In this document: positions 50,349 through 64,000 of the stretch, in pieces | Numbering within the stretch: the stretch's first letter is position 1 | Layout of the letters: each line of letters opens with the position of its first letter | Assembly (NCBI RefSeq): GCF_024972735.1 | Contig: NZ_CP087723.1 | Coordinates: forward strand, 1,302,001 to 1,366,000 | Direction: 5' to 3' | Length of the DNA: 64,000 nucleotides | Origin: Halalkaliarchaeum sp. AArc-CO | GTDB taxonomy: Archaea > Halobacteriota > Halobacteria > Halobacteriales > Haloferacaceae | The notes under the pieces: generated by a model | What the model was told of the DNA's origin: nothing | The model's input: only the letters and a program-made list of their open reading frames with translations | Database searches by the model: none | Made by a program: the position numbers and the translations under genes

Positions 50349-50587
50349 CCCCACGTCGCAGACTGGTCGAAAGTTGAGTTGCTCTCATACCTGTACGGGC
50401 CAGAGTTGTGCCGTTTCGGTTGACATCCGCCAGGTTGACATCCGCCATCACTACGGAAGAAGAAAAATAGACCGTGGGCTACAGTCTCGTCTCCGCGCTG
50501 GAATACTTGCATTATTAATCATTATAAAGACGCCAATATTACAGCAGAAGAGCAATAGTTCGAGAAGTGACATTTTTATCTGGAGCC
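50349..50587. other. AT-rich spacer before the AOR gene
   Basis: About 240 bp. Much of it (about 50500-50580) is AT-rich, with ATTATTAATCATTATAAAG near 50512 as a candidate TATA region. No gene or repeat was seen. Confidence 0.45.
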
Positions 50588-52477
50588 ATGCCACAGGGAG
50601 GCTACGCAGAAACACTACTCGAGGTGAACCTGACCACGGGGGAGGTCACGGAACTACCGTTCCCGGACGACGAGGTGCTGAAAGCGTACGTCGGCTGTTC
50701 CGGGCTCGGACTGCATTTGCTGTACGGCAGGATCGAACCGGGAATCGATCCGCTGGACCCCGAGAACCCGATGGTGTTGACGACGGGACCGCTGACGGGG
50801 CTGCCGATGGTGCCGGCGGCGACGAATGCGACGATCACGACGCTGAACGGTGACACGGGATTCACGGCGGGTCGATCCCACTCGCACGGCTGGTTCGGAC
50901 CGCGACTGAAGCGCGCCGGTTACGACGGGCTCGTCATCACCGGTGCCGCAGACGAGTGGACGTCGCTCGTCATCGAGAACGGCTCGATCGAACTACGGGA
51001 CGCGAGCGATCTGGAGGGCGCCGACACCCACGACACGGAGGACCTCCTCAAGGAGGAACTAGGTTACACAACGGAGCTGCCCGGTGAGATGAGCGTGGCC
51101 GCCATCGGACCAGCGGGCGAAAATCTGTGTGACGGGGCGCTCATCGAAAACGACAAGAACCACTCGTTTTCCCACTCCGGTGTCGGTCAGATTATGGGTT
51201 CGAAGAACTTGAAGGCGATCGGGGTGCGGGGAACCGGTGAGGTACCGATTCACGACGAAGACCGGCTCCGTGAAATCGCGAAGCGATGGAACGAGAACCT
51301 CGAAGAGAGCACCGTCTATCAGGGGCTGTCGGACGCCGGTATCCCCTCGGGTGAATACGAGTACCCCAAAGAGACGTCGATGACGGTCGCGAAGAACATG
51401 CTCGAGGTGCCGGGTCCCGATCACGAGTGGGGCCAGGGGATGGCGGACCACGACATCGACCCACGGCCCTGCTTCGGCTGCCCGGTCGGCTGTTCGTACG
51501 ACTTCGAATACGTCGAGGGACCGAACGAAGGGTACGTCGCGACGCCCGCCGGGGGCGGCGAGAACCTGGAGGGGTCTGCTTCAATCGTCGGCGTCTACGA
51601 CACCGACTGGGTCCACTATCTCACCGATCGGTGTGACCGGCTCGGCTTCGAGTCCAGCGGCATCGGCGCCTCGATGGCGGTCCTCATCGAGGCGTATCAG
51701 GAAGGACTGATCGACGACGAAGACACTGACGGGATCGAACTCGGCTGGGGCGATCCCGAACTCGTCGAGCAGCTCCTGGAGATGGCGGCCCACCGCGAGG
51801 GAACGCTCGGCGAGGTGCTCGCCGAGGGCCCCGGCTACGCCGCCGACTGGGCCGGTGGGGACGCCCACGACCGGGCTGTCCACGTCAAAGACTCCGGGAT
51901 GAACCTTCACGACTGGCGGGCCGCCTGGGGGATTATGCTCGGTCAGATCGTCGGGCCGAGCGCGAGTTGGCCCGCGCCCGGCGCCGACGCGTGGGGAATC
52001 CCCTACGACGCCGGCTACGAGGAGTTCCAGGACCCCTTCGACTGGAAAGAAAAACCGACGGACGTCGTCAACACCTGGCCCGTGAAGTACTGGGACGACG
52101 CCAACGGCACCTGCTGGTTCGGGACGTGGGGCGTTCCGGATCAGGTCGAACTCTCCGCGCAGGCAGTGGCTGCAGTCACCGGCTGGGAGTTCACCCGGGA
52201 GGACGCCCTCGAAGTCGGCGAGCGGCTCGTCCACTTCGAGCGCGGGTTCGGGGCACGCTTCGGTCACACCGCCGAGAACGACCTCGACGTCCCCGAACGT
52301 ATCGTGGAGGAACCGCCCGAAGGTCTCGGTGCCGGAAAGGAGATGAAACAGCATCTCGAGTGGATGATCAGAGAGGTCTACCGGCTCAACGGCTGGGACG
52401 AACGGACCGGCAAGCCGCAGCGCTCCACCCTCGAGGAGGTCGGACTGGAGAAGGTCGCAGACGACATCTGGGCCTAG
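50588..52477 (+). CDS. Aldehyde:ferredoxin oxidoreductase (tungstopterin, AOR family)
   Basis: 629 aa from the ATG at 50588. The N-terminal AOR domain contains TTGPLTGLPMVPAATN and GFTAGRSHSHGWFGPRLKRAGYDG (pterin binding). The [4Fe-4S] cysteines are C295, C298 and C302 (CFGCPVGC) and C509 (NGTCWFG). The enzyme oxidises aldehydes to carboxylic acids and passes electrons to ferredoxin, using a bis-molybdopterin tungsten cofactor in the cytoplasm. Haloarchaeal AORs are typical of sugar or amino-acid catabolism. No adjacent MoaD- or ferredoxin-type partner gene was found. Confidence 0.93.
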   Translation: MPQGGYAETLLEVNLTTGEVTELPFPDDEVLKAYVGCSGLGLHLLYGRIEPGIDPLDPENPMVLTTGPLTGLPMVPAATNATITTLNGDTGFTAGRSHSHGWFGPRLKRAGYDGLVITGAADEWTSLVIENGSIELRDASDLEGADTHDTEDLLKEELGYTTELPGEMSVAAIGPAGENLCDGALIENDKNHSFSHSGVGQIMGSKNLKAIGVRGTGEVPIHDEDRLREIAKRWNENLEESTVYQGLSDAGIPSGEYEYPKETSMTVAKNMLEVPGPDHEWGQGMADHDIDPRPCFGCPVGCSYDFEYVEGPNEGYVATPAGGGENLEGSASIVGVYDTDWVHYLTDRCDRLGFESSGIGASMAVLIEAYQEGLIDDEDTDGIELGWGDPELVEQLLEMAAHREGTLGEVLAEGPGYAADWAGGDAHDRAVHVKDSGMNLHDWRAAWGIMLGQIVGPSASWPAPGADAWGIPYDAGYEEFQDPFDWKEKPTDVVNTWPVKYWDDANGTCWFGTWGVPDQVELSAQAVAAVTGWEFTREDALEVGERLVHFERGFGARFGHTAENDLDVPERIVEEPPEGLGAGKEMKQHLEWMIREVYRLNGWDERTGKPQRSTLEEVGLEKVADDIWA

Positions 52478-52929
52478 GGAGGCGGTGATCCCGCCCGACC
52501 TCGATAACAGTTGTTGGCAATTCGATCTTCTTTATTCGGGTCGGAACTCGCAAACTAGCGTTCCACGTTCGAGTACTCCGGTTTCGTGTATAAACGCCGG
52601 TCATATTGCCAACTACTGATAAAGACTACCGACTTTCCAGTTTCGGAGGCGATTCGGTCCGGAACTGTCCGACGTGGTTCCCCTCGTTTGTTGGGCATGA
52701 CCGTCGATGGGCTGTCGACTGCGATGTCTCGTCCGAATTCGCCCGACAGTGGTTCGGGTTCGGGTTTGTTGAGGGTTTGCCGGTGATACCGTTCAGGAAC
52801 GATCGGAACAAAGCGGCGACGTCTGTAGTTAACTGGCCCTGGTTCGTTCGTAGTCACTCGCGCCGGCGTCCGGGTGGGCGATCCGCTCGCCAGTGCTCGG
52901 GTTGTAGAGCTGGGACGCACGGACGAACC
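52478..52929. other. 450-bp region without a supported gene, left of the integrated element
   Basis: Open frames on both strands have low-quality composition. A short minus-strand frame near 52836-52945 (phrases QLYNPSTGERIAHPDAG and ASDYERTRAS, possible GTG start) looks protein-like but is only about 35 aa, and I cannot place it. Confidence 0.35.
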
Positions 52930-53186: not shown

Positions 53187-53212
53187 TCCGCCCTCCCCGA
53201 TTTGAACGGGGG
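53187..53212 (-). other. tRNA 3'-end fragment, candidate attachment site (tRNA-Tyr-like)
   Basis: On the minus strand CCCCG-TTCAAAT-CGGGG forms a perfect T-arm, followed by AGGGCGG plus A, which reads as the 3' acceptor strand and discriminator. A matching 5' acceptor would be CCGCCCT, with C1-G72, the archaeal tRNA-Tyr identity pair. No D-arm or anticodon arm is present, so this is only the 3' end, as left at one border of an element integrated by the nearby tyrosine recombinase. Confidence 0.65.
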
Positions 53213-53216
53213 TTTC

Positions 53217-53275
53217 GTGGAGCCTTCGGGCGGTTTCACCGCCCTCGGCTCCACTTATCGCGGCCTGACGGCCGC
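53217..53275. repeat. Two adjacent perfect hairpins at the attachment site
   Basis: GTGGAGCC/GGCTCCAC with inner GGGCGG/CCGCCC (53217-53254), then GCGGCC/GGCCGC (53260-53275). They lie between the tRNA fragment and the integrase start and could be recombinase arm sites or terminators. Confidence 0.7.
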
Positions 53276-53339
53276 GAACAAGCCGATCTCCGGTCGCCGG
53301 GGCCTCGGTCGCTCCGTGGTCGTGGGTTCAAAACGAACC

Positions 53340-54362
53340 ATGACCGACCAAAACGACCTCGAACCCCTCGACCCCGAGACGGCCAAGGAGATGTACCATC
53401 GGGAACGCGAGGGGGAAGTGACGGAGCGGACGCTACAGGCACACCACTACCGACTCGTCCACTTCATCCGCTGGTGTGACGAGGTGGACATCGATGATCT
53501 GAACGACCTCTCGGGTCGCAAGCTCCACGAGTACCGGCTCTGGCGAAAGGAAGACGGGGACCTGAACGCGGTGTCCCTTCGGACCCAGTTGGAGACGCTG
53601 AGGGTGTTCATACGGTTCTGTGAGACCATCGACGCCGTCCCGAGCGGGCTCCACGAGAAGATCCTCCTCCCGACCCTCTCGAACGACGACGAACAGCGCG
53701 AGGAGATCCTTCGGTCGGAGCAGGCCGAGGACGTGCTGGAGTACTTGCGCCGCTTCGAGTACGCCTCTCGGACTCACGTGGTCCTCGAACTGCTCTGGCA
53801 CACTGGGATCCGACTCGGGTCGCTGGTGGCCCTCGATCTCGACGACTACAATCCGGAGGAACAGCGACTCGAACTCCGACATCGGCCCGAGACCGACACG
53901 GGCCTGAAGAACGGGAGCGAAGGCGAGCGGCTGGTCGCTCTCGATCCGTATGTCTGCGACGTCCTTGACGACTGGATCGACCGGCAGCGACCTGCGGTGA
54001 CGGATGATCATGGACGAGACCCCTTGCTGACGACTCAGCACGGACGACTCTCGGGGACGACGGTCCGGGAGACGGTCTACAAGGCGACGAGGCCGTGCTA
54101 CTACGGCGACGACTGTCCCCATGACCGCGATCCTGACGAGTGCGAGGGCGCGGATTATGGGTCCTACAGCCTGTGTCCGTCGAGTGTGAGCCCTCACTCG
54201 GTTCGTCGAGGGTCGATTACGCACCATCTTTCCGAAGACGTCCCCGAAACCGTCGTCAGCGACCGAATGAACGTGGGCAAGGAGGTCCTCGATAAACACT
54301 ATGACCGGCGCTCCGAGGAAGTGAAGGTCGAGCAGAGACGAGAGTATCTGGACGGGGTATGA
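53340..54362 (+). CDS. Tyrosine recombinase (integrase)
   Basis: 340 aa from the ATG at 53340. An N-terminal SAM-like core-binding domain (about 20-110; TERTLQAHHYRLVHFIRWCD) precedes the catalytic domain. The active-site Arg is in HTGIRLGSL (about 158), HSVRRGSITHH gives the H-x-x-R (about 286), and the nucleophile Tyr321 is in LDKHYDRR. A Cys/His-rich insertion (CYYGDDCPHDRDPDECEG...SLC) just before H-x-x-R probably binds zinc, as in other haloarchaeal integrases. It would insert the element at the tRNA 3' end 130 bp upstream. The next gene starts 3 bp after the stop. Confidence 0.92.
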   Translation: MTDQNDLEPLDPETAKEMYHREREGEVTERTLQAHHYRLVHFIRWCDEVDIDDLNDLSGRKLHEYRLWRKEDGDLNAVSLRTQLETLRVFIRFCETIDAVPSGLHEKILLPTLSNDDEQREEILRSEQAEDVLEYLRRFEYASRTHVVLELLWHTGIRLGSLVALDLDDYNPEEQRLELRHRPETDTGLKNGSEGERLVALDPYVCDVLDDWIDRQRPAVTDDHGRDPLLTTQHGRLSGTTVRETVYKATRPCYYGDDCPHDRDPDECEGADYGSYSLCPSSVSPHSVRRGSITHHLSEDVPETVVSDRMNVGKEVLDKHYDRRSEEVKVEQRREYLDGV

Positions 54363-54365
54363 TCC

Positions 54366-54758
54366 ATGGATCGCACTGAAGACTCACGAGACGCCTCTGT
54401 GACCGATCTCTCGGAGGTCAGAGAGCCCGCTGACGACGAGACAAAGCCCGAGATCAAGCCCGACTCGTGGCGTGACCTGACCGAGTTCGTCGACCAGTTC
54501 GACGACGCCGTCTTCGGCGTGCTCGCGGATCCCGATGACAGTCCCGAGGGGTTTTGGATCGTTGAGGACATCGACAAGGTTCGGCCAGCCGCTGTTCCTC
54601 TTGGTGATCCAGCGACGTTCGACATGGATGTTCTCGGGCCCGGCGGGAAGGTAGTTGACGAGATCCGTCTGACCATCGAGGAGATCGAGCACGTCAGGGC
54701 GGCTGAACCCTCAGGCGTGGCTCCCGAGACCGACGAGGAGGAGATCGAGGAGACCTGA
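54366..54758 (+). CDS. Hypothetical acidic protein of the integrase operon
   Basis: 130 aa, starting 3 bp after the integrase stop. Ordered core about 25-105: KPDSWRDLTEFVDQFDDAVFGVL, then GFWIVEDIDKVRPAAV and FDMDVLGPGGKVVDEIRLTI, an alpha/beta pattern, with acidic ends. No family recognised. Its position suggests a role in excision, control of the recombinase or element maintenance, which is inference only. Confidence 0.65.
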   Translation: MDRTEDSRDASVTDLSEVREPADDETKPEIKPDSWRDLTEFVDQFDDAVFGVLADPDDSPEGFWIVEDIDKVRPAAVPLGDPATFDMDVLGPGGKVVDEIRLTIEEIEHVRAAEPSGVAPETDEEEIEET

Positions 54759-55162: not shown

Positions 55163-56414
55163 TCGGCGTAGATCGACGCTGAGGGCGAGCAACCCTCGCC
55201 ACGCCCCTCTGCTGACCCTCGAACGCGCTCGACGATGTATCCCCCTCGTCGAGCGAAGGAGTTCCTGTTGACGCCTCCACGAGGCCTGCGACGGACCCTC
55301 TCGATGATTTCGCACCAGAACCCGGAATCTCTCGCGCCGCGGGCCGGACACCAACCGGATGGAGTGCGAGATGATTACTCGATACTCGCTGGGGTACAGC
55401 CAGAGGTACACCGCTGTCTGAGGGGTCAGACGGTGGACCATCTATCTACTCGTACTGTAGAATCTGGAGAGATGTCTGAGCCCTCAGACAGAGAATAGTA
55501 ATATATACGATACTAATTCTCGTAAGTTTGTGTCTGAGGGTTCAGACGAACGAAGTGATATTAGCTACTGGCATAGAGGGCACCAGTAAGGCGATTATAG
55601 CTGTCTGAACCTTCAGACGGATTCCCTACTCTGCCTGTTTCAGTACGGTACTATTTGTCTGAACCTTCAGACGTTCGACATACTTATGTCCCCCGAGGTC
55701 GTGGTAACACTCGTTGACCGTTGACGAGTGAACGAAGCCGAACCCCCCGAAGACCGTTATACGAACAGGACTTCGGGAAATCCGGAACGACTCCGGTCTG
55801 GTCGAGAAACCCAGTGCAGGAAACGAAAGCCCCTCTACGTCGGAAGGTGGAAGGTGAGGAAATGAGTCCCCTCACACTTCCTTAGGGAGGTCCGAAGTAA
55901 TGGGCTTTCGGGACGACCCCTCCCCTCTAAGGGACGTCTCCGTCTTCCCGTGCAGTGCGGGGCGGTCAAGGCGCGTCAGCGCCGCCAGTTTCTGTTCGGT
56001 ATCGGTCGAGGGGGGTGAGGTGGAGTAGGTCGGTAGTAGAGCTGTGGCTGTACTAATGGGATTGTAAAGGGAAAAACGGGCTCTTCAGACAGAACGTGAG
56101 TTCGCTGAGGGTTCAGACGACACCACCCTGTCGGCGAGGTCGCCAGTGCATCCGAGGCCGACGAGTCCGTCTGAGGGTTCAGACGAGGATATACCCTACC
56201 GAGTGTCGGACCGAGGTCGCCGACGAGTTCGTCTGAGCACTCAAACCGGAGAGAGCCCGTCTGAGGGTTCAGACAGGTCGGACAGCGAGCGGGCTCGGAG
56301 AGGGTATGGGCACGACAGGAACGATCCCCTCGATTACTGTCTGAGGGTCCAGCGAGCTACGAACGCCCCAACGCCCATATATAAGCGCGTTTAAAAGCCG
56401 GTTCGAGAGGCTTC
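55163..56414. other. 1.25-kb gene-poor region carrying palindromic repeats
   Basis: No convincing gene in either direction. It holds about ten of the GTCTGA-N4-TCAGAC palindromes, an AT-rich patch (55495-55535, AATATATACGATACTAATTC) and a strong potential RNA hairpin (55825-55909). The combination of iteron-like repeats and an AT-rich tract is what a replication origin or a complex control region of a mobile element looks like. Confidence 0.6.
55825..55909. ncRNA. Candidate structured RNA or long hairpin
   Basis: The outer stem GAAAGCCC/GGGCTTTC (55825-55832 with 55902-55909) encloses a second stem GGAAG-GTGAGG / CCTCAC-A-CTTCC (55849-55859 with 55870-55881). The nested pairing over 85 nt exceeds what neighbouring DNA shows. 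No known family was recognised, and strand and expression are not determined. Confidence 0.35.
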
Positions 56415-57068
56415 ATGTCCGATCAGCGCCACCGGACCTCCCAACTCGCCCTCTCACGCGGTACGACAGACCCGTCCGAGTACTCCTCACCGGACGCGAA
56501 GGCCCGCTTCGCGGTCGCCAAGCACTACGGGATGGGTTCGGACGGCGAGTGGTCGGTCGAGGAGATCGCAGAGGCCCTCGACGTCACCGAGAGGCAGGTC
56601 TACCGGTATATCAACGAGTCGGAGATCGGCCGGGAGGTCCGCGAGACCATGGCCGTGACGGACGCCGAGTGGCGACTCGACGCCGCGCTCACCCTCCGCG
56701 AAGAGATCGAGAGGCTGGAGGAAATCGAGAAGGAGTTGCTCGAACAGACGACGACCATCCCGACCGACTTCGAGGACCAGACTGTCGAGGGGACGCCCAC
56801 GAGGGACGGACAGATGATCCTCGTCGACGAGGACGACTACACCCTGACGATCCCCGTCCCAAGCGAGTACGAGGAGATCACCGAGTACGGATCCGACCTC
56901 GAACGGATCCAGAAGGAGAAGCGCCAGCACATCGAGCAGATCACCAAGCTCCTCGGGCTCGACGACCACGACTGGCACTACCGCGAACAGAGGCCGTCTG
57001 AGGGTTCAGACACGACCCCCGTCCAGTTCCGGGAGATCGACGACGGGTGCGACGCGACGGGTGGCTGA
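56415..57068 (+). CDS. Helix-turn-helix DNA-binding protein of the element
   Basis: 217 aa. The HTH lies near residues 44-75: EWSVEEIAEALDVTERQVYRYIN, close to sigma-region-4/homeodomain-like helices. A long helical part follows (about 80-115, REEIERLEEIEKELLEQ), then a beta segment and a final coiled coil (SDLERIQKEKRQHIEQITKLLG). Coiled coils suggest dimerisation. It sits at the right border of the palindrome cluster and carries one copy (56996) in its own coding sequence, so it is a plausible ligand of those sites and possibly a regulator of the downstream hsd genes. A TATA-like ATATATAA precedes it (about 56376). Confidence 0.75.
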   Translation: MSDQRHRTSQLALSRGTTDPSEYSSPDAKARFAVAKHYGMGSDGEWSVEEIAEALDVTERQVYRYINESEIGREVRETMAVTDAEWRLDAALTLREEIERLEEIEKELLEQTTTIPTDFEDQTVEGTPTRDGQMILVDEDDYTLTIPVPSEYEEITEYGSDLERIQKEKRQHIEQITKLLGLDDHDWHYREQRPSEGSDTTPVQFREIDDGCDATGG

Positions 57069-57236
57069 GGGTTCAGACAGGACGGACCGGAACGCGAGAC
57101 GGGGAGAACCGGGCTCTCAGGGGACCCTCCCGCAGAGAGCGGGACCACCTCCTCGAACTCCGGGGGGTGGGAAGCAAGCGGTGAAGTGGACCGCCAATCA
57201 CCAACGCCTAAGAGGTTACCCTGTTATCACCTTGGT

Positions 57237-60054: not shown

Positions 60055-63007
60055 CGAACAACCATCCGAGGGCGGCCTTCAGACGTCGGTCCTCCAGTGG
60101 CTCGACGGCCTCGGATGGGAGACCTACAACCCCGACGAAGGTCACGGCGCGACGGTCCTCGACGAGCGATACGGTCGCCAGCGTTCGGAGGTCGTCTACT
60201 GGGATCTGCTCGCGGAGACCGTCGTCGAGATCAATGACGAACTGACCGAGGCCAACGTCGACCGGTTCCTGAACTCGCTTCGACGCGACCTCGACCACGA
60301 CAACCTGCTCGACGGCAACGAAGCGTTCTACGAGATCCTAACCACGGGCAAGAAACACACCGTCGACCAGCAACACAACGGGACGAAGACAATCTACGCC
60401 GACCTGATCGACTTCGAAAACCCCGAGAACAACCGGCTTCACGCCGTCGACGAGTTCGCCGTCTCCCGACGCGGCTCAATCCGTCCCGACGTAACCCTCC
60501 TCGTCAACGGGATCCCCAGCGTCCAGATGGAGCTGAAGTCCGTCACCCAGGACAACGACTTCTACGACGCCATCACCGACCTCCAAGCCTACGAGGAAAA
60601 GGTCCCACGAGCGTTCATCCCGACGCTGTTCAACGTCGCCGCCGACCAGAGTGTCCTCCAGTACGGAGCCGTCGGTGCCCCCCGCGAGTTCTATCAGGGG
60701 TGGACGACCGCGCCCGAGCGCTACCAGTCGGACAACGACGTCAAGCAGGCCGTCCAGGCCCTGCTGAACCCTCAGACGCTGCTCGACGTCCTGAAGTACT
60801 TCGTCTTCTACGAGGAGCGTCCCGACCAAGACGCGAAGATCATCCCCCGCCACATGCAGTACTATGCGGTCAAGCGGATCCTCAACCGGGTCGAGCGCGG
60901 CGAACACCGGAAGGGACTGATCTGGCACACCCAGGGATCGGGGAAGTCGTTCACGATGCTGTTCACGGCGAAGAACCTCCTCGAACGCGATATTCTCGAC
61001 GCACCGCAACTGTTCGTCGTCGTCGACACGGACAAACTCAACAGCCAGATGCGCGACCAGCTCGCGAACCTCTCCTTCGAGCGCTGGACCGAAGCCGAGA
61101 GCATCGAGGGGCTCGAAGACACCATCGCGGCGGGCCGGAGCGAACTCGTCGTTACGACCATCCAGAAGTTCCAGGACGTCGACCCCGGCGTCCAGTCGAC
61201 CGACGAGGCCGTCGTCATGTCCGACGAGGCCCATCGGTTCATGGAGGCCGACCTCGGGAGCCGGCTCGAAGCCGCCCTTCCCGACGCCTACCACTTCGGC
61301 TTCACTGGGACGCCCGTCCGGGAGGGCGACCGCGAGAAGGACCGCAACACGTTCGACGAGTTCTCCCCCGAGGACGAGGAGTACCTCCACCGCTACTCGA
61401 TCAAGGACGGCATCGACGACGAACTGATCCTCCCGGTCTTCTTCCGGCTCCGTCACGAGATGGACTGGGACGTCGACGAGGCTGGCCTCGACGAGGAGTT
61501 CGACGAGGCGTTCGCCACCCTCCCCAAAGAGGAGAAGCTGGCGATCATCCGCGACCACGTCACCAGTCGGATGCTCGCCGAGATCGAGCCCCGCGTCGAG
61601 CGCGTGGTCGCCGAGATCGACGATCACTTCGACGGCGTCGAGAAGAACGGCTGGAAGGGCATGGTCGTCACGCCGAGTCGGAAGTCGGCGGCCATGTACG
61701 GGGAACGGCTGATCGACCGTCGAGGCGAGGACGCCGTCGACGTGCTCTTTACCACGACCCAGAACGACCCTGATCTGCTCCAGCAGTTCCACACCGACCC
61801 CGGCGAGCGCGACCAGATCGTCCGGGACTTCAAAAACGAAGACGAGCCCAAACTGCTCGTGGTCCACAACATGCTCCTGACGGGCTTCGACGCCCCCGTC
61901 CTGAAGACGATGTACCTGGACCGGGAACTCCGGGATCACACCCTCATGCAGGCCATCGCCCGGACGAACCGGCCAGCTGACGGCAAGGAGAATGGCGAGA
62001 TCGTCGACTTCCAGGGCGTGTTCGAGAACATCGACGACGCTCTCGACTACGACGACGAGACGAAACAGTACGCCGCCCAGGACAGCGAGCAACTGTTCGA
62101 GAAGCTCCAGAATCAACTCGACGCCGTCCTCGACATCTTCGAGGGGATTCCCCGCGAGGACAGCCAGGAAGTCGTCGACGAGTGTCTCGACCGAGTGAGC
62201 ACCCACCCCGAGAAGCGCGAGTTCAAGCAAGGGTTCCGACGACTCCAGGACCTCTACGAGTCCGTCTCGCCCGACCGCCGACTCGTCGAGGAGCGGATCG
62301 ACGAGGACTACGGCTGGCTCGGGCGGATCCACACGGCCTTCCAGCGGACGGCCAACCGGTCGGAACGGCCCGAAGACGAAATGCGCGAAAAGACCCGCGA
62401 GATCGTCGAGGAGCACGTCGACATCGGCGAGATCAAGCGGGACTACCCGGTCTACGAACTCGGCGCGGAGTACCTGGAAGACCTCGATCACCTCAGAAGT
62501 GACGCCGCGAAGGCGTCAACGATTGCCCACGCCATCCAGGAGAGCACGCAATCCCGAATGGGCCAGAACCCCCGCTACGAACGACTGAGTGAGCGTGTGA
62601 CCGACATCGTCGAGGCGTGGCAGGCCGGCGACCGAGCCGATCCCGAGGCCGTCGAGGCGCTCCGCGAGGTCGAAGCGGCGGTGCTCGCGATCGACGAAGA
62701 GGCCAATAAGTGCGGGATGTCAGACGCCGAGTTCGCCATCTTCACCGATCTCACCGAGGAGCGCGATCTTGATCTCTCGGAGGACACCGCCGAAGCACTC
62801 GCCCGCGACATCGTCGCCGAGTTCGACGACCGCGTCGACACGAGTTACGAGGGCTGGGAGACGAACGACCAGACGGTCAAGGAGATCGAGCTTGTACTGT
62901 TGGATGTACTGGTGAAAGAACACGACCGGGGTGAACTGGTCACCGACGAGTTCATCGACGCCGTCCATACCTACCTGATTCAAAACTATGTCGCAGACGA
63001 GGCGTAA
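60047..63007 (+). CDS. hsdR: Type I restriction-modification motor and nuclease subunit
   Basis: 986 aa. The N-terminal PD-ExK nuclease has RPDVTLLVNGIPSVQMELKS, with ELK at 162-164. Two RecA-like motor domains follow: Walker A TQGSGKS (about 295-301), DEAH box SDEAHRF (about 393), FGFTGTP, and motif VI QAIARTNRP. A helical C-terminal domain binds the HsdM2S core. It translocates DNA with ATP and cuts at collision points. No disruption is visible, so the system should be active. The ATG overlaps the hsdS stop; the metallopeptidase gene overlaps its 3' end by 20 bp. Confidence 0.95.
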   Translation: MTNEQPSEGGLQTSVLQWLDGLGWETYNPDEGHGATVLDERYGRQRSEVVYWDLLAETVVEINDELTEANVDRFLNSLRRDLDHDNLLDGNEAFYEILTTGKKHTVDQQHNGTKTIYADLIDFENPENNRLHAVDEFAVSRRGSIRPDVTLLVNGIPSVQMELKSVTQDNDFYDAITDLQAYEEKVPRAFIPTLFNVAADQSVLQYGAVGAPREFYQGWTTAPERYQSDNDVKQAVQALLNPQTLLDVLKYFVFYEERPDQDAKIIPRHMQYYAVKRILNRVERGEHRKGLIWHTQGSGKSFTMLFTAKNLLERDILDAPQLFVVVDTDKLNSQMRDQLANLSFERWTEAESIEGLEDTIAAGRSELVVTTIQKFQDVDPGVQSTDEAVVMSDEAHRFMEADLGSRLEAALPDAYHFGFTGTPVREGDREKDRNTFDEFSPEDEEYLHRYSIKDGIDDELILPVFFRLRHEMDWDVDEAGLDEEFDEAFATLPKEEKLAIIRDHVTSRMLAEIEPRVERVVAEIDDHFDGVEKNGWKGMVVTPSRKSAAMYGERLIDRRGEDAVDVLFTTTQNDPDLLQQFHTDPGERDQIVRDFKNEDEPKLLVVHNMLLTGFDAPVLKTMYLDRELRDHTLMQAIARTNRPADGKENGEIVDFQGVFENIDDALDYDDETKQYAAQDSEQLFEKLQNQLDAVLDIFEGIPREDSQEVVDECLDRVSTHPEKREFKQGFRRLQDLYESVSPDRRLVEERIDEDYGWLGRIHTAFQRTANRSERPEDEMREKTREIVEEHVDIGEIKRDYPVYELGAEYLEDLDHLRSDAAKASTIAHAIQESTQSRMGQNPRYERLSERVTDIVEAWQAGDRADPEAVEALREVEAAVLAIDEEANKCGMSDAEFAIFTDLTEERDLDLSEDTAEALARDIVAEFDDRVDTSYEGWETNDQTVKEIELVLLDVLVKEHDRGELVTDEFIDAVHTYLIQNYVADEA

Positions 63008-63713
63008 GCGAACGACGACGCTGGCCGGCGAGCAAGTGATCTACGAGGTCTCGCGGAGCGACGACGCCACACAGCCCCGGATCGACGCGGGGATCGACGG
63101 GATTACCGTCATTGTACCCTCAGACGCCCACGAGGATCCGGAGGCGATCCTGTCGGAAAACGCGACATGGGTGCTCGACAAGAAGGCGAAGTTCGAGCGC
63201 TATCGGGACGACGTCCCGGATCGAACGTTCGAGCCCGGTGAAACGTTCCCGTACCTGGGCGAAGAGCACGAACTCGTCGTCGAGCCCCGACAGAAGTCCG
63301 TCGTCGAGGACGAGACAATCCGTCTCCGACGAAGCGCGGTCGAACAGTCGTCGGTCAAGCGGGCCCTTCGGAACTTCTACCGACGTCAGGCCCGCGAATA
63401 TCTCTCCGAGCGTCTCGACCACTTCGCCGACGAGATGGGGCTGGAGTACGACGGCCTCGAAATCAGGAACCAGCGGACCCGCTGGGGGAGTTGTTCGACG
63501 AACGGCACGATCAGCCTGAACTGGCGGCTGCTGATGGCCCCGCAGGACATCGTCGACTACGTGGTCGTCCACGAACTCGCCCACCTACGAGAGCCCAATC
63601 ACACCGACGCTTTCTGGTCGCTCGTGGCCGAGCACGATCCCCGCTACGAGGCACACGCCGAGTGGCTGGAGGAGCACAGCGCCAGACTCGTGTTCAGTCG
63701 CGAGGATCTCTAG
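62988..63713 (+). CDS. YgjP-type (DUF45) zinc metallopeptidase
   Basis: 241 aa, starting inside hsdR (20-bp overlap), so translation is coupled. The C-terminal domain has NQRTRWGSCSTNGTISLNWRL, typical of YgjP/DUF45, followed by the zinc site HELAHLREPNH (H195, E196, H199) and a distal acidic residue. YgjP genes are often cotranscribed with type I restriction genes in bacteria, and their role there is unresolved: possibly control of the endonuclease by proteolysis, like the ClpXP alleviation of HsdR. Here the overlap makes a functional link likely. Confidence 0.9.
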   Translation: MSQTRRKRTTTLAGEQVIYEVSRSDDATQPRIDAGIDGITVIVPSDAHEDPEAILSENATWVLDKKAKFERYRDDVPDRTFEPGETFPYLGEEHELVVEPRQKSVVEDETIRLRRSAVEQSSVKRALRNFYRRQAREYLSERLDHFADEMGLEYDGLEIRNQRTRWGSCSTNGTISLNWRLLMAPQDIVDYVVVHELAHLREPNHTDAFWSLVAEHDPRYEAHAEWLEEHSARLVFSREDL

Positions 63714-64000
63714 GTCGTCCCGACCCGTGGAACCCGCTGTGAGCCGTCTCTGACACCCACGATGAAGTAAGACTACCCATACCACTCAGCCATCGTCGGA
63801 TGATCACGAGAGGGGTCACAGAGGCGTCCCCAGGAGGCTGAGAGAGGCCTCAGGTTCGTGTGACTGACCGAAACCCGGACTGCTGACGCTGGCTGCGCCG
63901 GAGGGATCGAGGAAGAGAGCAGGAGGTGATTCTGAAGATCTCTGGGGTGTCGCTGACGGTTCAGACGGAGTCTGGATCCCTGTCGGTAAGCGCCGACAAG
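63714..64000. other. Intergenic end of the window
   Basis: No gene. One weak copy of the palindrome (GCTGACGGTTCAGAC, 63952-63966) shows that the element continues. The far attachment site must lie beyond the window. Confidence 0.5.

Follow-up and report, generated by a model that had tools for sequence, protein, structure and literature searches.

Dispersed palindromes in an integrated element of the haloarchaeon Halalkaliarchaeum sp. AArc-CO as candidate operators of a PadR-like regulator in a PICI-like candidate satellite

The stoperators of mycobacteriophage L5 are, in the portions of two papers drawn on here, 13-bp asymmetric sites whose orientation follows transcription and to which a two-domain protein binds as a monomer (PMC6550527, PMC9283540). 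Satellites of archaeal fuselloviruses are already known, as sections of two further reports indicate (PMC4027180, PMC11389934). In the literature searched, which included few subscription journals, no stoperator-like operator network of an archaeal virus was found, no terS-carrying satellite of tailed haloviruses was among the matches listed, and the string GTCTGAGGGTTCAGAC did not occur. The palindromes of Halalkaliarchaeum sp. AArc-CO described here may be dispersed operators of a PadR-like regulator, similar to stoperators, in a PICI-like candidate satellite, a reading drawn from sequence comparison to which we assign a probability of about 0.5.

The window, that is the whole stretch of 64,000 nucleotides that was analysed, contains by motif scan eight perfect copies of GTCTGA-N4-TCAGAC, starting at 55416, 55474, 55532, 55603, 55657, 56169, 56259 and 56996, and four altered ones, at 56231 and 57063 (one mismatch each), 56103 (two mismatches) and, read directly from the sequence, 56340 (three mismatches). 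This agrees with a first-pass annotation of this DNA, which had reported at least eight intact and four altered copies within 55416-57078 and an exact 58-bp spacing of the first three. With up to two mismatches allowed the window holds 15 matches versus 4.15 expected, and 15 was reached in 0 of 100 shuffles. The AT-rich tract that had been described between copies is located at 55490-55531 (11 of 42 bases G or C), and the region is gene-poor as claimed: 55163-56414 wholly encloses just two short open reading frames of at least 80 aa, 55235-55498 and 56146-56394, neither of which by eye resembles a haloarchaeal gene. CRISPR arrays have longer repeats, unique spacers and cas genes. The palindromes are 16 bp long, irregularly spaced and also present inside genes, and the proteins scanned gave no cas match in Pfam, so the earlier dismissal of a CRISPR array stands.

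Are the palindromes a property of the genome or of a part of it? The 3.18-Mb AArc-CO genome has nine perfect sites and none for the reversed control motif. Eight form the cluster, and the ninth, at G000:C2:1368305, lies beyond the window at 66305 in extended coordinates (window numbering continued past position 64,000), 9.3 kb downstream of the cluster. Tolerating one mismatch raises the genome count to 13, with two of the four added sites in the cluster, and gives one site for the reversed control. All nine perfect sites are inside a single 13.9-kb element; the genome-wide count that had been named as a check therefore finds them confined to one element and not uniformly distributed. The features of this element are given below; G033, G050, G173 and G290 denote genomes with related loci.

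53187..53212, no strand: left attachment repeat of 26 bp, an exact direct repeat identical to the 3' end of tRNA-Tyr
53340..54362, plus strand: tyrosine recombinase (integrase) of 340 aa; Pfam PF00589 (longer frame 53250-54362) and PHROG integrase
54366..54758, plus strand: 130-aa protein, conserved in three elements (AArc-CO, G033, G050)
55183..56186, no strand: noncoding region of ~1 kb, 88% identical in G033, with the densest palindrome cluster
55416..55672, no strand: five perfect palindromes at spacings of 58, 58, 71 and 54, the same spacings as in G033
56103..56274, no strand: second palindrome group, with 56103 (two mismatches), 56169 (perfect), 56231 (one mismatch) and 56259 (perfect)
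56340..56355, no strand: altered copy GTCTGAGGGTCCAGCG with three mismatches, ~60 bp upstream of the terminase-like gene (read from the sequence)
56415..57068, plus strand: helix-turn-helix (HTH) protein of 217 aa, homologue of terminase small subunits (PHROG 26615); Pfam, PHROG, synteny and fold matches
56996..57078, no strand: two copies at the end of the HTH gene, 56996 perfect and inside its 3' part, 57063 with one mismatch and over its stop codon
57237..63007, plus strand: hsdM-hsdS-hsdR, type I restriction-modification cargo (Pfam, PADLOC; hsdM start read from the sequence)
62988..63713, plus strand: YgjP-like metallopeptidase (Pfam PF01863)
63951..63966, no strand: palindrome copy with two mismatches that contains the stop codon of the PadR-like gene
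63961-64209 in extended coordinates (63961..64000 in the window), minus strand: PadR-like winged-helix gene, 82 aa; promoter palindrome 16-mer at 64256-64271
67100 in extended coordinates (G000:C2:1369100), no strand: right repeat, the 3' end of the tRNA-Tyr gene called there

The two flanks (AArc-CO 50510-52494 and the tRNA-Tyr side from 67100) are ~2.5 kb apart in the sister genome G359, and 53213-67099 has no match there except for a partial 23-bp copy of the repeat ~115 bp further left. The element is therefore absent from G359, though the insertion site is not cleanly empty: the full attachment repeat is present at tRNA-Tyr, and the 2.5 kb between the flanks is unrelated to the AArc-CO flank. 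In two genomes without the element, G359 (L181 16870-17010) and G006 (L182), a second, partial copy of the repeat lies 0.1-0.2 kb away from the 3' end of tRNA-Tyr and may be a trace of previous integrations there. The 88-nt tRNA-Phe that ARAGORN calls at 53187-53274 has the 26-bp tRNA-Tyr repeat as its first bases; it is probably spurious, a chimera of repeat and element DNA. The integrase is 93% identical in G033 and 64% in G050, and for the 130-aa protein Pfam, PHROG and NCBIfam gave no family. Among the element proteins scanned against Pfam and PHROG (all except three small ones) neither structural nor lytic genes were found, nor did these databases give a Rep, Orc or primase family (for the proteins other than those of 50, 91 and 45 aa), and a plasmid and phage DNA similarity search gave no match. 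The element also encodes further small proteins. One of 45 aa at extended 66397-66534 (L010 13397-13534) has relatives of ~50 aa in G050, G173 and G290 and appears, by eye, to be a small conserved protein of the element family. A second conserved stretch without a recognised gene, extended 65381-65776 (L010 12381-12776), is shared by AArc-CO, G033 and G050, at ~78% identity to AArc-CO in the best segments, and contains indels of 1-2 bp, which argue against coding.

The comparison was extended to eight records, consisting of five element loci (AArc-CO, G033, G050, G173 and G290) and three virus contigs (G391, G392 and G393), with the mean of 60 dinucleotide shuffles per record as baseline. The core CTGA-N4-TCAG occurs 20 times in the 13.9-kb AArc-CO element versus a shuffled mean of 0.27, a total that includes copies beyond the cluster with arms of the CGCTGA...TCAGAC type. 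The corresponding numbers are 14 versus 0.08 in G033, 8 versus 0.23 in G050, 7 versus 0.38 in G173 and 7 versus 0.40 in G290 for the related loci, and 18 versus 0.23 in G391, 32 versus 0.77 in G393 and 6 versus 0.12 in G392 for the virus contigs; in all eight records the count exceeds the largest of the record's own 60 shuffles. In the AArc-CO element the 16-mer is wholly noncoding at 14 of 20 sites, compared to 22.6% of positions (p=8.7e-6), and by rough gene calls sites lie within 50 bp of gene ends in 11 of 32 cases in G393 (p=0.004), 4 of 6 in G392 (p=0.005) and 4 of 18 in G391 (p=0.11). The embedding of sites in start and stop codons, as in genes whose products begin with MSEGSD or MTEPSD, is striking by eye, yet in a crude count it is about at background (7/224 and 12/224 strand-sites versus 4.7% and 3.2%) and was discarded as a special feature.

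The 112 core sites of these records yield the extended consensus YGTCTGA-ACCC/ACCT-TCAGACR, with ACCC/GGGT at the centre of 49 and ACCT/AGGT at the centre of 21. The outer two positions are often CG on one side only (GT with CG in 23/112), and the outer arms pair at positions 2 and 15 in 50 and at positions 1 and 16 in 66 of the 112 sites. Since the outer arms are not compensated, an RNA hairpin is ruled out in favour of a DNA site, and the palindrome looks like a predicted protein-binding DNA site with half-sites rather than an RNA stem. A recognition site of the type I enzyme is ruled out as well, because sites occur in G033, whose element has no hsd homologue, and in the virus contigs.

Across 391 Halobacteria genomes the 16-bp motif with an RSSY centre is found in eight, with eight copies in AArc-CO, four in G033 and one each in six genomes. 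The reversed-motif control is found in two genomes with one copy each, and some of the six single-copy genomes may therefore be due to chance. A site pair at the spacing of the cluster is restricted to two genomes, AArc-CO and G033. Together with the genome-wide count this survey rules out chance or a genome-wide repeat as source of the palindromes. Two of the single copies, in G173 and G290, belong to loci with ~60% related integrases, PadR-like genes and further degenerate sites. The lone site of G264 is located 0.57 kb from tRNA-Tyr, with no homology to the element beyond the tRNA region, and G277 and G355 have lone perfect sites only; these three were set aside. The HTH protein has one relative outside AArc-CO at E<=1e-5 (G050, 76%), and the 130-aa protein is present in three of the 391 genomes (AArc-CO, G033 with 83% and G050 with 63%). 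A word-pattern scan of genome contigs gave no match, which for the integrase shows only that the patterns were poor, since integrase relatives exist in 355 of 391 genomes. In the 30 best integrase loci (~4 kb each), 22 of 23 cores belong to AArc-CO, G033, G050 and G290 and the other 26 loci share one, so that the sites are unsupported as a general property of elements with a related integrase.

The relative in G033 is a minimal one. At the same tRNA-Tyr it comprises, within 4.8 kb, an integrase, a 125-aa protein, a zinc-ribbon protein and a site cluster with spacings 58-58-71-54, and it lacks the HTH protein, hsd genes and a close PadR. Its 14 core sites, seven of them perfect, make up the highest site density. 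The first-pass annotation had proposed either iterons of a replication origin or operators serving the HTH protein beside the cluster and the hsd genes. An element-specific operator or iteron fits the data, but operators for these particular genes fit poorly, as G033 has the same cluster at the same spacings without either. The adjacent HTH protein fits poorly as the best candidate binder, being a homologue of a terminase small subunit (TerS) and missing from G173 and G290, which nevertheless carry sites.

The iteron reading, according to which the repeats at 55416-55672 would be bound by some initiator, draws on the same locus. The spacings 58-58-71-54 are kept in G033 despite a compensating pair of one-base indels between two copies, an AT-rich tract lies in ~1 kb of noncoding DNA that is 88% conserved, and G050 has a Prim-Pol/RepB-primase gene (L014:10376-11740), between the TerS-like gene and the integrase side, in the position where AArc-CO and G033 have the noncoding cluster region. 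A Prim-Pol-type replication protein is also encoded in G173 (L113:10361-11842). However, the repeats are not beside an initiator gene, a family of this kind being absent among the AArc-CO element proteins scanned, sites are found at gene ends and throughout the virus contigs too, and G050 has the motif though the noncoding region is absent, all of which renders an origin quite unlikely as explanation of the palindromes. Within the noncoding kilobase, 84 bp (55778-55861) are identical between AArc-CO and G033, members of different families, and the RNA fold of 55673-56100 has z-scores of -2.1 on the plus and -2.4 on the minus strand. No Rfam family scored above threshold, with one sub-threshold match (E 0.38); this segment may be a novel structured RNA or belong to an origin.

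Could the repeats instead be homology linkers, that is recombination joints for module exchange between elements and viruses? Some alignment segments start or end in or next to copies, at 56186 for G033 and at 56172, 56272 and 56339 for G050. This may however simply follow from the presence of repeats that are maintained for some other purpose, other segment ends are away from copies, and the strong palindromy and the promoter footprint would be left unexplained. We consider linkers very unlikely.

This promoter footprint belongs to the PadR-like gene, whose 82-aa product passes the Pfam PadR cut-off and has only sub-cut-off matches in NCBIfam. The gene is 81-83% identical across AArc-CO, G050, G173 and G290, and in all four loci a core is positioned at -60 from its ATG. 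A perfect CTGACCGGTCAG is found at -62 in three of three homologues with 61% identity, which are encoded on megaplasmids of Halobacterium DL1, Natrinema versiforme and archaeon DL31; these megaplasmids are almost the same as one another here and therefore count as one lineage, and the 20 kb around each homologue contain one other core in total. A second partial site ending in CCGGTCAG is found near -23/-26 in AArc-CO, G050 and the plasmids, its position being taken by CATCGGTCAG in G173 and G290. In addition, the stop codon of the gene falls within another palindrome copy in AArc-CO and G050. The flanks at the promoter, ..CTGA-N4-TCAGAG, differ from the dispersed GTCTGA-N4-TCAGAC, and the core is missing at two more distant homologues, in H. 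walsbyi (43%) and in HJTV-2 (47%). On this evidence the PadR-like protein of the element is the likeliest binder of the palindromes. Against the PadR reading stands G033, with 14 cores and neither a PadR-like nor a TerS-like protein; no close PadR homologue was found in its element or elsewhere in its genome. A regulator of a helper virus, to which the satellites would respond in trans, would account for sites in the absence of both candidate proteins and for an identical motif in viruses and elements, but no such regulator was found in the virus contigs, records that may be fragments, and the idea appears highly improbable.

The virus contigs were reached through the HTH protein, which has relatives with 51-55% identity in the three IMG/VR contigs G391, G392 and G393; a profile scan with the protein returned the same three. 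With at most one mismatch there are 12 sites in G391 (12.95 kb), 17 in G393 (30.2 kb) and two in G392, at a control count of 0. G393 encodes a large terminase (TerL) and portal by PHROGs and G391 an 81% relative of the G393 terminase; the G391 portal and the terminase and portal of G392 were judged by eye. Of the element proteins the HTH protein alone is matched in these contigs (E<=1e-4). A scan of viral contigs with the 130-aa protein gave no match, the ncRNA-like 24-mer occurs in no viral contig, and the three contigs, possibly fragments, yielded no PadR. Nine stretches of 8 viral contigs contain the exact 17-mer GTCTGAACCCTCAGACR, with more than two cores only in G391 and G393. Contig L023 (GC 0.50), whose two perfect copies belong to a local repeat, was excluded as unrelated. 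In 80 loci examined among 257 TerL relatives only G391 and G393 have at least three cores or a perfect copy, so that the sites are unsupported as a general property of viruses with a related TerL. A TerL of the L026 type was found in none of six genomes searched, five of which carry elements, in a search run without positive control.

We take the HTH protein to be a TerS homologue mainly from synteny and less firmly from fold. A 33% relative is encoded directly upstream of the HNH-TerL in HCTV-16 and HVTV-1, and in PHROG the similarity to terminase small subunits is weak. The structure model is of modest confidence (mean pLDDT 68.8, pTM 0.39); in a viral fold library TerS takes ranks 1 and 2 (best E 6.5e-4) at low TM-scores (0.26-0.31 for the best), and in the PDB no match was below E 0.1, with a weak one to 2ao9, a Bacillus cereus phage protein. 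NCBIfam gave no match for this protein. It could be imagined that the TerS homologue binds the palindromes as packaging sites, like the R sites of cosB or a pac region, and that a tailed virus packages the element. The cluster adjoins the TerS-like gene, TerS relatives are encoded in all three virus contigs with sites, and in G391 a ~1.4-kb gap without a picked gene that adjoins the TerS gene likewise carries a site cluster. Such a function is nevertheless unlikely, as sites are scattered over virus contigs and elements, G033, G173 and G290 carry them without a related TerS, and Druskaviridae with the ~33% TerS homologue have zero core sites in the stretches read.

How would a PadR-like regulator act on these sites? 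The regulon would be specific to the mobile element and its relatives, with the palindromes as its DNA operators. A dimer of the PadR-like protein would bind the two CTGA half-sites and control its own promoter via the sites at about -60 and -23, and the dispersed copies, mostly noncoding, would act much like stoperators and silence the remainder of the element. With its integrase, TerS homologue and defence cargo and with no capsid genes found, the element would be a PICI-like candidate satellite that shares its operator sequence with tailed haloviruses and might depend on one of them for packaging. A wider proposal is possible, if doubtful: a family of archaeal PICI-like satellites would share a genome-wide palindromic operator code, bound by the small PadR-like protein as an archaeal equivalent of stoperators, with helper tailed viruses, and combine joint silencing and induction with a borrowed TerS and swappable defence. 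If right, these readings would provide a compact, testable system in non-pathogenic haloarchaea for lysogeny-type silencing and satellite-helper interaction, and the density of CTGA-N4-TCAG would serve as sequence signature for finding more such elements.

How does the locus compare with described systems? In the sections cited here pSSVx is an archaeal satellite whose small winged-helix protein, Stf76, regulates its own expression and whose promoter sites are two palindromes; it differs in being a satellite of a Sulfolobus fusellovirus and in its sites, TTAA-N7-TTAA, which are described there only in the promoter (PMC4027180). The tailed halovirus HF2 similarly has repeats in intergenic positions, but, as far as the sections consulted describe them, these are AT-rich, ~50 bp long and include promoter motifs (PMC7230728). 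HF2 1-45000 (of 77.7 kb) contains one CTGA-N4-TCAG core. The Druskaviridae (HCTV-1/5/16, HVTV-1/2) share an HTH/TerS homologue upstream of terL and a similar TerL (55%), but not the sites, no core being present in the 16.6-kb and 21.4-kb stretches read.

The PICI/SaPI elements are closer in overall plan, with a size of ~14 kb, a terminally placed integrase, a terS homologue and no structural genes found, and the likeness extends to a primase, in two relatives (G050 and G173), and to exchangeable defence cargo, as parts of one account present these elements (PMC6092414). In AArc-CO this cargo is type I restriction-modification, and in G173 (L113:3839-9886) a defence-type cluster of an HmaB/DUF1156 methylase, an HmaC/DUF499 ATPase and a PglZ-like protein. 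By eye, G290 (L115) has a defence-type cluster similar to that of G173. Also PICI-like is an integrase with a specific attachment site (26-bp repeats at tRNA-Tyr, the element being absent from the sister genome). Unlike in PICIs, a primase/rep module followed by ori is not recognised in the AArc-CO element, the host is a haloarchaeon, and the candidate regulator is PadR-like and not beside int; the term PICI-like candidate satellite thus expresses likeness and not classification.

Finally, in comparison to the stoperators, the sites of the element are palindromic, the proposed binder is a small protein with a winged helix and the host is archaeal, and the likeness is one of site layout. This layout resembles in two respects that of cluster A mycobacteriophages such as L5 and Bxb1, as portrayed in the portions cited: at least 20 copies of a short site are dispersed in promoters and intergenic spaces, and the regulator gene, in the element a candidate, has its own upstream site with further copies downstream (PMC6550527, PMC9283540).
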